64,000 bases of DNA from Pseudidiomarina tainanensis. GTDB lineage: Bacteria > Pseudomonadota > Gammaproteobacteria > Enterobacterales > Alteromonadaceae. The position numbers and the translations under genes are program-made. The notes below the pieces were generated by a model, which ran no database searches, was not told where the DNA came from, and saw only the letters and a list, made by a program, of their open reading frames with translations. Within the stretch, counting starts at the first letter, position 1. Each line of letters starts with the position of its first letter. Below, one piece after another: positions 2,210 to 22,746 of the stretch. The stretch covers positions 1,240,001 to 1,304,000 of the forward strand of contig NZ_PIQJ01000001.1 of NCBI RefSeq assembly GCF_004214835.1, given 5' to 3'.

Positions 2210-4612
2210 TTAATCGCGCGGTGGGCGCGGCGCAAGAACTTCGCGTTGGCCATTATTTCCGGCACTAGTAACGACACCGCTCGCTTCCATTTGTTCCACA
2301 ATACGGGCGGCGCGATTGTAACCAATTCTGAATTTACGCTGCACACTGGATACCGATACACGGCGAGTTTCGGTGACAAAAGCAACAGCCTCATCGTAAA
2401 GTGGATCGCTTTCCTCGTCACCCAAATCAAGTTGTTCGCCGGGTAATAGATTATCCTCATCCAAACTACCGTTAAGAATTTCGTCTAAATAGTTCGGTTT
2501 GCCGCGTTTTTTCCAATCCGCAACCACCGCATGAACTTCATGATCATCAACAAATGCGCCATGTACACGAGTAGGAACACCGCTTCCTGGCGGTAAGTAA
2601 AGCATATCGCCCTGCCCCAATAACTGGTCGGCACCGGGCTGATCTAGAATAGTCCGTGAATCAATTTTTGACTGCACTTGGAACGCGATTCGCGTTGGAA
2701 TATTCGCCTTAATCAAACCCGTAATAACGTCTACTGATGGACGCTGGGTCGCTAGAACTAAATGAATTCCAGCCGCACGGGCTTTTTGCGCGATACGCGC
2801 AATCAATTCCTCAACTTTCTTACCCACAATCATCATCATGTCAGCAAATTCATCGATGACGACAACGATACTAGGTAACTTCTCTAAATACGGCGGTAAC
2901 TCATCCATCGAATCGCCTGGCTTCCAAATTGGATCGCGTAGCGGTTCGCCCGCTTCTTTCGCCTCTAAAACCTTTTGGTTGTAACCTTTTAAGTTACGCA
3001 CGCCAAGTGCTGACATGAGTTTATAACGTCGCTCCATTTCACCAACGCACCACCGCAACGCATTTGCGGCGTCTTTCATGTCCGTCACAACTTCAGTCAA
3101 CAAGTGCGGGATGCCCTCGTACACCGAAAGTTCAAGCATTTTCGGGTCGATCATGATCAAACGAACATCTTCCGGCGAGCTCTTATAAAGCAAGCTCAAG
3201 ATCATTACGTTCACGCCCACTGATTTACCAGAACCTGTGGTACCGGCAACGAGTAAATGTGGCATTTTCGCCAAATCCACAACAACTGGCGCGCCAGAAA
3301 TACCTTTACCCAGCACCATGGTTAATGGCGATTGACTCTGTTGGAATGCATCACATGCGATAACTTCGCTAAAGAATACGGTTTCTCGCGATTTATTAGG
3401 TAGCTCAAGTCCCACGTATGATTTGCCCGGTATCACTTCCACCACGCGCACTGAAATTGCACTCAACGAACGCGCAATATCTTTATCGAGGTTGGAAATC
3501 TTTGATACCTTCACACCAGGCGCTAAATCGAGTTCAAAGCGCGTAATTACTGGGCCAGGCTGCACGTTCGCAACTTTGACTTCCACACCGAAATCTTGCA
3601 ACACCGCTTCAACCGTTTGGCTAATTTGTTGAAGCTCTTCAGGCGTTAATGGATTACCGGTTTTATTTGGTCGATCCAACAGTTCAATCGATGGCAACGG
3701 ATCAACGCTCAATACTGGCGCGCCATCGGTATCATCGTCTTGGTCAGCCTGGATTGTTGATTTATCTTCATCATCAGATGGCACCGCAACTGACTTCGAT
3801 GATTTTGGCTTGAATCGCGCATTATCGGCTGGTTTGGATACATCTTTACGTGGCGTTATATCACCAAGTGCTGACTCATCCTCGTCGAGCGCAGATAATG
3901 TTAAGTCGAGATCAAGCTCAGGTTCTTGTCGGATGGTCGTAGCCGGCAGAGTTTTCTGGCTTGGCGACAATTGCTCTGGAACCTTGGCCTTCTCAGTTTT
4001 AACTGGGCGCTCATAAGCCCGGACTTTCGCAACGAGCTTCTTCGCCAGAGCGATCAAACCAAGCGTTCCAGTGATGGTTACTTCACCAAGTTTATCGGCT
4101 AACCAAATCCAAGAAATACCTGTGACTAGCGTTAAACCAGTACACAAGAACGTCAACAATAATAATGTTGTGCCAATAAGGTTGAAATACGGCAGTAACG
4201 AGGTACTGATCACATCACCAACCACACCACCGGCTGAAAATGAGTAGATATCGCTAAAGTTTAACGCCGCTAGTGCAGAAGCGCCGATTAAGGTTAGCAC
4301 GAGTCCGATTAAACGTAGTCCGACGGCTAAATAATCCAGCTCAAGTAATTTATGGGGCTGGCGAAACATCATGTAGCCCAGTGAAGCCAATCCGAACGGA
4401 ATGAGATAGGCGACAAATCCAAAAGCAAACAACAAGGCATCAGCAAACCAAGCGCCAATTGCGCCGGCAGCATTATGAATATTGCCTTCATAGGCTGTTT
4501 GTGACCAACTTGGATCGGCTGGATTGAAGCTAGCTAATGCTAAAAATAGAAAGATAGCAAAAGCGCCGCAGAGTATGAGGCCAACCTCTAAAACGCGTTG
4601 TACACCACTCAT
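2210..4612 (-). CDS. ftsK: DNA translocase FtsK
   Basis: 800 residues. About four N-terminal transmembrane helices (roughly residues 10-165) are followed by an acidic, low-complexity linker to about residue 300. The RecA-like motor has Walker A GTTGSGKS near residue 459 and Walker [15 protein letters not shown]-terminal gamma winged helix ([19 protein letters not shown]) normally reads KOPS sequences and contacts XerD. The linker is far shorter than the roughly 600-residue one of E. coli FtsK (1329 aa), giving a compact SpoIIIE-like layout. Its role is to pump chromosome termini through the septum and activate dif recombination. It lies between lrp and lolA, as in E. coli. Confidence 0.97.
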
Positions 4613-19854: not shown

Positions 19855-20091
19855 TTATAATTGAGTACGTTGACGACAAGTCGCTTCAGATAAGTCGTAA
19901 TTAACACTCACATAGTGGTCATTAGGGCAAACTAACTTTTCTGAATCTTTTTTCGAGTTTGAGGATAACTGCGTTAACTTAACTGCCCAATCGTTCAAGT
20001 TGACGTTGGGTGTCACATCAATCTGTTGATCGCGGTTAAAATATTGAAACGCAACGCCGCCGAATATGAAAAGCAACAATAGTTTGCGCAT
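19855..20091 (-). CDS. Small exported two-cysteine protein, unknown
   Basis: 78 residues. It begins MRKLLLLFIFGGVAFQYF, which looks like a signal peptide or signal anchor, followed by a polar domain with two cysteines (VCPNDHY and ATCRQ) that could form a disulfide in the periplasm. An AGGT lies about 10 bases upstream of the ATG. I do not recognise the family. Upstream stand three GTAAA repeats at 11-base intervals (20185-20211) and a possible -10 TACTAG at 20143-20148 on this strand. The presumed transcript would begin close to a perfect hairpin (20122-20138). This layout suggests an envelope-stress-controlled gene, by inference only. Confidence 0.6.
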   Translation of the reverse strand: MRKLLLLFIFGGVAFQYFNRDQQIDVTPNVNLNDWAVKLTQLSSNSKKDSEKLVCPNDHYVSVNYDLSEATCRQRTQL

Positions 20092-20184
20092 GGCTATATC
20101 TACCTAAATTGCAGTTAACGAAGAGATTGGTAATCTCTGCCTCTAGTACAGCAATGAGTCTAAGCAAATCTTCTTATTTGCACC

Positions 20185-20211
20185 GTAAATTTAGGGTAAA
20201 TTCAGTGTAAA
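20185..20211. promoter_or_regulatory. Triple GTAAA direct repeat, CpxR-like box
   Basis: GTAAA occurs at 20185, 20196 and 20207 on the plus strand, so three pentamers lie on one helical face with 11-base spacing (N6 gaps). The known CpxR box is GTAAA-N4-8-GTAAA. It lies upstream of the small exported protein gene (minus strand, start 20091), with the near edge 37 bases from the possible -10. Recognition by CpxR or a related response regulator is inferred. Confidence 0.55.
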
Positions 20212-20232
20212 TATTGAACCATGCACCTAGTG

Positions 20233-20832
20233 CTATGATTTTACTCGCAATAACTTTACGGCAGTGCCATATGCCAGTAGTTCGGCCGCACCATGCGCAA
20301 GCATAGAGGTACTAAAACGCACATCAATGACAGCATCAGCGTCAAGCGAACGGGCTTCGTCGACCAATCGGTCTAACGCTTGCTCACGGCTCTCAGCAAG
20401 TAACTTTGTGTAATCGTGTATTTCACCACCAACAATGTTACGAAAAGCAGCAAAAATATCGCGTAACATCAGAATTTCTCGTTGCTCAGTTGATAACTTT
20501 TGCAAGCCCGTACGAACCCATTGTTGAGTTTGCCAGGTCTCGAGTTGACAATCAGGCTCAATCGAAACAGGAGCTGATTGTTCTTCGGTTTCACTATCAA
20601 TTGGTTGCTCTTTGCGCTCATGCCGAATCACGTCAATCGCCGCGTTGTGTACCGAACGCAAAAACCAAGCTTTAAGATGCTGGCTTTCGTGCGGCATGTC
20701 GGAGAGAAACATTGCCTTGGCTAATACCTGCTGAACACTATCGGCGGCGCGTTGCTCGCACTGCTGAATTGCCATAGCGTGAGCCATCGCATCAGCTAAA
20801 AACGGGCGTAATAACGCCAACCGATCAGACAT
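20233..20832 (-). CDS. Chimeric ORF: ECF sigma factor N-terminal part fused to YbjQ/UPF0145 C-terminal part
   Basis: 199 residues in one open frame. Residues 1-126 read as an ECF sigma factor: AADSVQQVLAKA and LKAWFLRSVHNAAIDVIRHE in region 2, then LQKLSTEQREILMLRDI, the start of region 4. The helix-turn-helix that should follow is absent. From residue 127 the sequence continues as a YbjQ-type domain (FAAFRNIVGGEIHDYTKLL, ARSLDADAVIDVRF, ending YGTAVKLL) lacking its own N-terminal third. The join falls at codons for Arg-Asp-Ile (about 20455-20463), a tripeptide plausible in both parents, so an in-frame deletion between neighbouring genes is likely. A good AGGA precedes the ATG. It probably cannot act as a normal sigma factor. 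Confidence 0.75.
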   Translation of the reverse strand: MSDRLALLRPFLADAMAHAMAIQQCEQRAADSVQQVLAKAMFLSDMPHESQHLKAWFLRSVHNAAIDVIRHERKEQPIDSETEEQSAPVSIEPDCQLETWQTQQWVRTGLQKLSTEQREILMLRDIFAAFRNIVGGEIHDYTKLLAESREQALDRLVDEARSLDADAVIDVRFSTSMLAHGAAELLAYGTAVKLLRVKS

Positions 20833-20919
20833 ATAAGTTCCTAGTAAAATGGTCGCTTACTTATAAAACGAACGAGGTAATCCTTTTATTCCCTTTTTTC
20901 TAAAAAATATTTTAAGTGA

Positions 20920-22746
20920 TTAATCTGGCAAAAAGCCGCCAGACTGACGTGCCCATAGCTGCGCATATAAACCGCCATGCGCTAACAACTCCTCGTGGCT
21001 ACCTTGCTCCACAATTCGGCCTTCATCCATCACCACTAACCGATCCATCGCGGCAATCGTGGATAATCGATGAGCTATGGCAATAACCGTTTTACCTTCC
21101 ATGAGTCGATATAAGTTTTCCTGAATTGCCGCTTCCACTTCTGAATCCAATGCTGAGGTGGCCTCATCAAGTATCAGAATTGGCGCATCTTTTAACATGA
21201 CTCGCGCTATCGCAATGCGTTGCCGTTGCCCTCCTGAAAGCTTCACACCGCGCTCACCAACATGCGCTTCATAGCCACGTCGGCCTTGCGAGTCCTCTAA
21301 ATCGGCAATAAAGGCATCGGCTTCGGCGCGATGCGCAGCTTGATCAATCATCTCTTGCGTTGCATCTGGGCGACCGTACGCAATATTGCCGCGGACCGAA
21401 CGATGTAATAGCGACGTGTCTTGGGTGACCATGCCAATATGTTGGCGTAGGCTTTCTTGCGTCACCATAGATATATCCTGACCATCAATGGTAATCCGCC
21501 CTTCTTTCACTTCATAAAAGCGCAGCAACAGATTCACTAGGGTTGATTTACCAGCACCGGAACGACCGACTAAGCCAATTTTTTCGCCTGCTTTAATCGC
21601 AAGTTCAAGATCGCGTAATACGGGTTTATCTTCGCTATAAAAGAAATTGAGATGTTCAAAATGAATATTGCCCTGCTTAACAACAAGCGGCTTCGCTTGC
21701 GGCTTATCTTGAATATCTTGTGGAACTGAGACGGTCTTAATACCGTCTTGCACGGTTCCGATATTTTCAAAGAGTGACGAAATCTCCCACATGATCCACT
21801 GGCTCATACCCCACAGGCGAAGTACCAAACTGAGCGCAACTGCAATGGCACCAACTGTAATCAGACTCTCGACCCATAAGTAAATTGCCAAAAATCCGAC
21901 ACTAAATAACAATAGCGAATTTAGAAGATACAAACACGTATACAGCTTCGTCACTAAGCGCATTTGCCGGTGCACAGTTCCGAGGAAATCAGTCATACCC
22001 TCTTTTGCAAAGGCGAGTTCACGTTGCGCATGAGAAAACAGTTTGACCGTTTGAATATTGGTATAACTATCGACAATTCGACCAGTCATGATTGAACGCG
22101 CGTCGGCTTGCGCAGCGGCCACTTTCCCAAGACGCGGCACAAAATATCGCAACAAAACAACATATAGCGCTAACCAAACGATAAGCGGCAATGCTAAGCG
22201 CCAATCAGCAGCACCAATAATCACCACAGTACCGATGAAATAAACCGTGACATAGTTCAGCACATCGAACAGCTTGATCACACACTCTCGTACCGCTAAA
22301 GCTGTTTGCATTACTTTAGTTGCAATTCGACCGGCAAATTCATCTTGATAAAAGGTGACAGACTGGTTGAGTAGATATTTATGCACTAACCAACGAATCC
22401 GCATTGGGTAGTTGCCCAACAGACTTTGATACGTAATCAAAGAATGAAATATCACCAATAACGGCAAGCCGATGAGCACGACCGCGGCCATACCTGTTAG
22501 CCCCCAAAACTGTTCTTGCACAAACGTTTCGCGGTTTTGTTCAGCCAGCCAGTCCACAATATTACCAATGAAACTGAATAACCAAACTTCGGTCAGTGCA
22601 ATCAACATCATCAAGGCGCCAGCGGTGAAGATAAACGGCCACGCACCTCGACTGTAATACAAACAAAAGGCAACCAACGTTTTCGGTGGCTGCTCTGGGT
22701 TACCATCCGGAAATGGTTTAAGACGACGTTCAAACCAACTGAACAT
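20920..22746 (-). CDS. ABC-type exporter, fused permease and ATPase
   Basis: 608 residues in the half-transporter layout. A six-helix type I exporter domain (about residues 30-330) precedes a nucleotide-binding domain with Walker A GRSGAGKST, signature LSGGQRQRIAIARVML, Walker B ILILDEATSALD and the H-loop IAIAHRLST. Such proteins work as dimers in the inner membrane and export lipids, peptides or drugs; the substrate cannot be read from the sequence. It resembles the multidrug/lipid exporter group. The gene stands upstream of the sigma-YbjQ chimera on the same strand with an 87-base gap and no clear terminator. Confidence 0.9.
   Translation of the reverse strand: MFSWFERRLKPFPDGNPEQPPKTLVAFCLYYSRGAWPFIFTAGALMMLIALTEVWLFSFIGNIVDWLAEQNRETFVQEQFWGLTGMAAVVLIGLPLLVIFHSLITYQSLLGNYPMRIRWLVHKYLLNQSVTFYQDEFAGRIATKVMQTALAVRECVIKLFDVLNYVTVYFIGTVVIIGAADWRLALPLIVWLALYVVLLRYFVPRLGKVAAAQADARSIMTGRIVDSYTNIQTVKLFSHAQRELAFAKEGMTDFLGTVHRQMRLVTKLYTCLYLLNSLLLFSVGFLAIYLWVESLITVGAIAVALSLVLRLWGMSQWIMWEISSLFENIGTVQDGIKTVSVPQDIQDKPQAKPLVVKQGNIHFEHLNFFYSEDKPVLRDLELAIKAGEKIGLVGRSGAGKSTLVNLLLRFYEVKEGRITIDGQDISMVTQESLRQHIGMVTQDTSLLHRSVRGNIAYGRPDATQEMIDQAAHRAEADAFIADLEDSQGRRGYEAHVGERGVKLSGGQRQRIAIARVMLKDAPILILDEATSALDSEVEAAIQENLYRLMEGKTVIAIAHRLSTIAAMDRLVVMDEGRIVEQGSHEELLAHGGLYAQLWARQSGGFLPD

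Follow-up and report, generated by a model that had tools for sequence, protein, structure and literature searches.

The window, a 64,000-nucleotide stretch of the Pseudidiomarina tainanensis genome, carries a fused gene that is very probably the recent deletion remnant of a three-gene ECF sigma factor operon, and most likely non-functional. The gene (20233..20832, minus strand) is a single open frame of 199 codons with an ATG start and no internal stop. The first-pass annotation had described it as an in-frame chimera of an ECF sigma factor and a YbjQ domain in an open, well-initiated frame, a description confirmed by the Pfam and NCBIfam matches and by the parental genes of a sister genome.

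The profile matches show how much of each parent is left. Sigma70_r2 (Pfam) covers residues 11-74 with an E-value of 6e-5 and 23.2 bits, slightly below its curated cut-off of 24, and Sigma70_r4_2 covers residues 104-127 with an E-value of 0.028, which alone is not significant. NCBIfam ECF models match roughly residues 13-126, with a best E-value of 2.6e-16, and every one of them scores below its curated cut-off. The Pfam match, together with 67% identity to the sister genome's sigma factor, identifies region 2 of an ECF sigma factor. The YbjQ_1 profile matches residues 122-194 with an E-value of 1.6e-24. As predicted from the sequence at first pass, the sigma helix-turn-helix and the YbjQ N-terminus are both missing: the Pfam match to region 4 comprises only profile positions 2-25 of 54, and that to YbjQ begins at position 31 and runs to 103 of 103, so that neither a complete region 4 nor a complete YbjQ domain is found in the fused protein.

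For either half, the best match is in the sister genome, Pseudidiomarina marina PIM1 (G022). Residues 1-128 align with an intact sigma factor (67% identity, E 4.4e-51) and residues 122-199 with a separate YbjQ gene (87% identity, E 1.2e-37) lying about 660 bp beyond the sigma match. The G022 locus encodes a sigma factor of 168 aa, an anti-sigma factor of 147 aa and a YbjQ protein of 111 aa, in genes that overlap by ATGA. The sigma factor displays regions 2 and 4, both above cut-off (region 4 over profile positions 2-54), and is encoded next to an anti-sigma gene, as in other ECF/anti-sigma operons. The anti-sigma product carries a zf-HC2 domain (E 8e-9), an Hx3Cx2C motif and two hydrophobic segments judged by eye. 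The operon is flanked by the same genes as the fused gene, namely an ABC transporter gene and the 78-aa, DUF2868 and GTPase genes. A cognate anti-sigma gene adjoining the fused gene is not found in the window, whereas G022 has one.

The fused gene arose by deletion between genes that are intact in relatives. The deletion origin suggested at first pass therefore stands, but the supposed adjacency of the two parents does not, since a 147-codon anti-sigma gene sits between them; relatives with both parents intact exist, but they carry them as the outer two of three genes. The distance from Arg codon to Arg codon on G022 is 679 bp; because the parental genes overlap in different frames, an in-frame join does not require a length divisible by three. 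The Arg-Asp-Ile at the joint is indeed plausible in both parents, being encoded as CGT GAA ATT in the G022 sigma gene and CGA GAT ATT in the G022 YbjQ gene, with 7 of the 9 bases common to the two. The first residue past the joint is Phe in the window and Leu in the 17 other aligned sequences. In the comparison of the joint codons and their distances, the sigma rows and distances of G003, G004 and G006 were dropped, the motif having matched elsewhere in the sigma gene, and G016 and G005 were not included. The join may have formed via a short CGnGATATT-like repeat, which would be compatible with the shared bases, yet one parental copy is now gone, which places such an event beyond proof.

Table 1. 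Features of the fused gene and its surroundings in the window
Feature	Position	Strand	Basis
Sigma-derived part, codons 1-124: region 2, linker and start of region 4	20461..20832	-	67% identity to G022 sigma over residues 1-128; Pfam, NCBIfam
Joint CGC GAT ATT (Arg-Asp-Ile)	20455..20463	-	G022 alignment and codons of 13 relatives
YbjQ-derived part and stop codon, from about YbjQ codon 36 or 37 (G022 numbering)	20233..20463	-	87% identity to G022 YbjQ; YbjQ_1 profile 31-103
Predicted ECF-type operon promoter: GGGAATAAA (20893-20885) and CGTTTTA (20870-20864), 14 bases from GAATAAA to CGT	20864..20893	-	Sequence conservation
ABC transporter gene, upstream syntenic neighbour	20920..22746	-	Same neighbour in intact and operon-less relatives
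78-aa gene, downstream syntenic neighbour	19855..20091	-	Synteny comparison

The join could in principle reflect the collapse of an operon that is intact in the organism, as it is seen in one assembly only. We consider such an artefact very improbable. The stretch shared at the joint amounts to about 9 bases at most, and a repeat of this length does not suffice to make an assembly collapse. At 99.93% completeness, the genome comprises 5 contigs, the locus lying inside one of 1.76 Mb, and the truncated copy is its only PF01906 match.

Sized on G022, the deletion of about 680 bp removed the helix-turn-helix with which the sigma factor reads the -35 box, the whole anti-sigma gene and the first YbjQ strand (residues 15-30 when the intact protein is modelled with AF2). 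The YbjQ part thereby lacks 6 of the 29 columns that are invariant among 15 sequences. PDB relatives of YbjQ (2gtc, 1vr4 and 1y2i; PF01906) are listed with 5 chains per entry, from which we read the family as probably pentameric.

Comparison across the genus places the fusion between two other states of the same site. Of 26 Pseudidiomarina genomes, 14 carry intact sigma, anti-sigma and YbjQ genes in this order at the corresponding locus, the operon is absent from 11, and the fusion occurs in one, the window's species being represented by a single genome. The three genes also stand in order in a genome of another family (G040). The first-pass annotation had reasoned that a fusion carried by all close relatives would speak against recent decay, a case that the single occurrence does not bear out. 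In eight of the 11 operon-less genomes, the ABC gene is directly followed by downstream genes: the 78-aa gene after about 185 bp in G024, G017, G011 and G019, and DUF2868 in G007, G010, G021 and G014, where no 78-aa gene was found. For G020 and G015 no downstream neighbour was found in the stretch taken, and a close match of the ABC gene was not found in G023 (88% complete). YbjQ is present elsewhere in the genome of G014, and G015 has one weak sigma match. A partial YbjQ match in G010, which has no operon (contig C5, 13165-13326; profile 36-89 of 103, 23.3 bits), is either a remnant or a diverged copy.

On an ABC protein tree of 25 genomes (all but G023), 4 changes are needed to account for the absence of the operon, 2 of which are forced by strongly supported branches; G000 is grouped with G022 with a support of 90/83. 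Loss of the operon has occurred more than once, and the state seen in the window resembles an incomplete loss, within a clade in which 7 of 9 members are operon-less. The main use of the chimera is that intact operon, empty site and half-way state coexist in one genus.

Substitution patterns offer a further level of detail about the age of the fusion. Between the window and G022, pS and pN are 0.75 and 0.20 in the sigma half and 0.70 and 0.08 in the YbjQ half. Synonymous sites are saturated in this comparison and several dS values are undefined; pN and pS were compared in place of dN/dS dating. The corresponding pN values for the intact pairs G001-G013 and G003-G006 are 0.22 and 0.27 over the first 124 aligned sigma codons and 0.05 and 0.10 for YbjQ, and the close pair G008-G018 displays dN/dS of 0.18 and 0.03. 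Since diverging from G022, the two halves in the window have thus evolved in much the same manner as intact genes. An unbroken frame with intact-like pN despite saturated synonymous sites implies either a recent deletion or selection on the chimera.

When neutral evolution is simulated without indels, the probability that the frame is still open is 0.10 at 0.10 substitutions per site and 0.04 at 0.15. The 78-aa neighbour has a dS of 1.3 to G022, and the other neighbours with a defined dS have higher values. Unless the frame is selected, the neutral phase therefore takes up at most about a fifth of the window lineage (half of 1.3). Leave-one-out counts of departures at invariant sites do not set the window apart from its relatives: the YbjQ half has 1 departure against 0-4 in 15 relatives, and the sigma half 1 against 0-1 in 13 relatives (G016 and G005 not included). 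In the YbjQ half, changes restricted to the window number 4, 3 and 4 against 2, 1 and 0 restricted to G022, with G001, G013 and G009 as outgroups, a slight lean toward relaxed constraint. Decay is not visible in the fused frame, which contains no stop and has mostly kept its conserved residues.

A selected chimera would show the same lack of decay as a recent deletion. Such a working protein would bind core RNA polymerase through its region 2 part and use the YbjQ remnant as a soluble control or oligomerising part, acting as a competitor or modulator rather than as a sigma factor. The frame open over 199 codons, residues that evolve as in intact genes, the retained promoter sequence and the block-mean pLDDT of 92-98 for residues 1-70 in the AF2 model of the chimera all agree with this explanation. 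We nevertheless regard it as unlikely, because the fusion is confined to one of 26 genomes, its YbjQ part has lost the first strand and invariant columns, and the operon is frequently lost in the clade. The YbjQ half also has low pLDDT in the chimera model, although the alignment was poor and the model is weak for this second half, since MAFFT placed region 4 of the relatives over the YbjQ columns. In its boldest form, a single deletion would have turned a membrane-tethered sigma/anti-sigma/YbjQ circuit into one selected soluble protein, a region 2-only fragment able to bind core polymerase but not to recognise a -35 box, with a minimal YbjQ for control or oligomerisation and with expression from the old promoter via another sigma factor; this form seems quite improbable.

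A search for comparable fusions also weighs against a selected chimera. Among 369 genomes of the class, 121 have a match to the fused protein, the window's own included, and among the matches listed none apart from the window spans both halves to the YbjQ end. Seven of the matches listed (G417, G348, G284, G151, G204, G357 and G302) begin within the sigma half and end beyond residue 150, at residues 151-171; we read these as probable ordinary sigma factors aligned through region 4. Three loci (L105, L106 and L109) that looked like natural sigma-YbjQ fusions, in that a single tblastn stretch extended into the sigma half, resolve into three separate genes at the level of open reading frames. Viral contigs gave no match to the fused protein.

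Of the two fates proposed at first pass, a dying gene or a core-binding protein, the dying gene fits better, albeit with visible decay not yet present. For a recent deletion remnant, the events can be pictured as follows. Sigma, anti-sigma and YbjQ genes would have stood in this order behind a GAATAAA-N14-CGT promoter until a single deletion of ~680 bp fused the sigma gene at codon 124 to the YbjQ gene at about codon 37. Without the region 4 helix-turn-helix, the product should fail to read the -35 box of its own promoter, and the YbjQ part would be without its invariant N-terminal stretch. With both lost, the circuit is presumably dead and the operon silent or at basal expression. About one third of such joins would fall in frame, and we infer that the frame is still open because the deletion is recent, with too little time for decay.

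The promoter sequence itself is conserved. GAATAAA (GAATAGA in G004), 14 bases and CGT precede the sigma gene in all 14 intact genomes of the genus and in the window. A strict pattern, GGAATAAA-N14..17-CGTYTTA, has 7 matches in the 26 genomes, 6 of them at the operon, against 2 for the reversed control; its single match in the window's genome lies upstream of the fused gene. The looser GAATAAA-N14-CGTYT is found at the operon in 12 of the 14 intact genomes (not G025 and G004) and in the window, with 61 matches overall, compared with 29 of the control pattern. Of the 48 off-operon matches, several are near-identical strings in many genomes, which we take to be coding, and the promoter may have further targets beyond the operon. 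Across a wider set of loci, GAATAAA lies upstream in 22 of 24, compared with a shuffle mean of 0.7 and a maximum of 4; it precedes the sigma gene in 7 of 8 loci outside Idiomarinaceae, the distant loci having no CGT at the same place. Passages of one account of ECF sigma factors (PMC8103513) give a CGT -10 box and autoregulation as usual and quote the -35 element as AAC. Judged from these motifs, the operon promoter is most likely recognised by its own sigma factor, i.e., autoregulated.

The parental module extends well beyond the genus. A scan of genome contigs, seeded with the fused protein and thus favouring its kin, yielded 16 loci (L097-L112; e.g., L105 at 3071-4432 and L106 at 2999-4321), all 16 with sigma, anti-sigma and YbjQ genes in the same order and on the same strand. 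The hosts span several phyla; eight of them are Idiomarinaceae, the rest being Pseudohongiella, Balneolaceae, spirochaetes and a planctomycete. The anti-sigma factor has the Hx3Cx2C motif in 9 of the 16 loci. Its C-terminus is in all 16 a short tail containing [DE]-x-Tyr (e.g., DRYKKVQL or ERYKDIQR), encoded immediately ahead of the YbjQ start, and we speculate that this tail may contact YbjQ. The layout differs in 29 further YbjQ loci of gammaproteobacteria (L150-L178, examined with flanks of 1.5 kb): 28 have two YbjQ matches side by side, usually without a sigma gene in the flanks, and one (L154) has a sigma match nearby.

We know of no settled account of YbjQ function. The invariant order of the module (16/16), the presence of GAATAAA in 22 of 24 loci and the concentration of the strict pattern at the operon (6/7) together make YbjQ look like part of a dedicated ECF circuit, either as its main output or as a feedback part. 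If so, the signal that frees the sigma factor would give a way to test YbjQ function. The parental module is a better lead than the chimera, which is one more deletion remnant. The module is undescribed in the literature searched on YbjQ, UPF0145 or DUF74 with ECF or anti-sigma, and may be listed in the main ECF classification. Co-mentions of YbjQ or DUF74 with ECF words came, in the text portions retrieved, from separate lines of gene or protein tables, or concerned DUF748 rather than DUF74. In a table excerpt of sigma-B regulated genes (PMC3788345), ybjQ of Bacillus cereus (BC1012) appears beside rsb genes, another link of YbjQ to stress sigma factors.

A conserved element (20157-20215) in which ATTTAC recurs every 11 bases (ATTTACACTGAATTTACCCTAAATTTACGG) lies in the interval that separates the fused gene from its 78-aa neighbour. 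It is kept in relatives without the operon as well, and looks like a putative regulator site of the 78-aa gene.

Several known systems come close to the chimera or its parental operon. As in the autoregulated ECF/class I anti-sigma operons outlined in parts of two papers (PMC8103513, PMC7406223), the parental operon combines sigma regions 2 and 4, an adjoining anti-sigma gene with Hx3Cx2C in the genus and a CGT -10 box just upstream. It differs from the operons outlined there in that its -35 GAATAAA is not of the AAC type and YbjQ is a third gene, and the copy in the window has neither a complete region 4 nor an anti-sigma gene. With ECF41, as portrayed in sections of PMC3426412, the chimera shares the combination of an ECF sigma part with a further domain in a single polypeptide, as well as a conserved promoter, the targets of ECF41 being few. 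However, ECF41 members are described there as widespread, active sigma factors to whose C-terminus a regulatory domain is fused, whereas in the chimera region 4 is cut and the occurrence is limited to one genome. Relative to the YbjQ/UPF0145 family (PF01906), the chimera keeps profile positions 31-103 and 87% identity to the sister genome, but it is without the N-terminal strand and its invariant residues and is fused to a sigma factor. Deletion-fusion pseudogenes arise when a single deletion joins two operon genes in frame, with the parts at the joint being lost. Although no decay is visible yet, the chimera displays the same architecture of loss.
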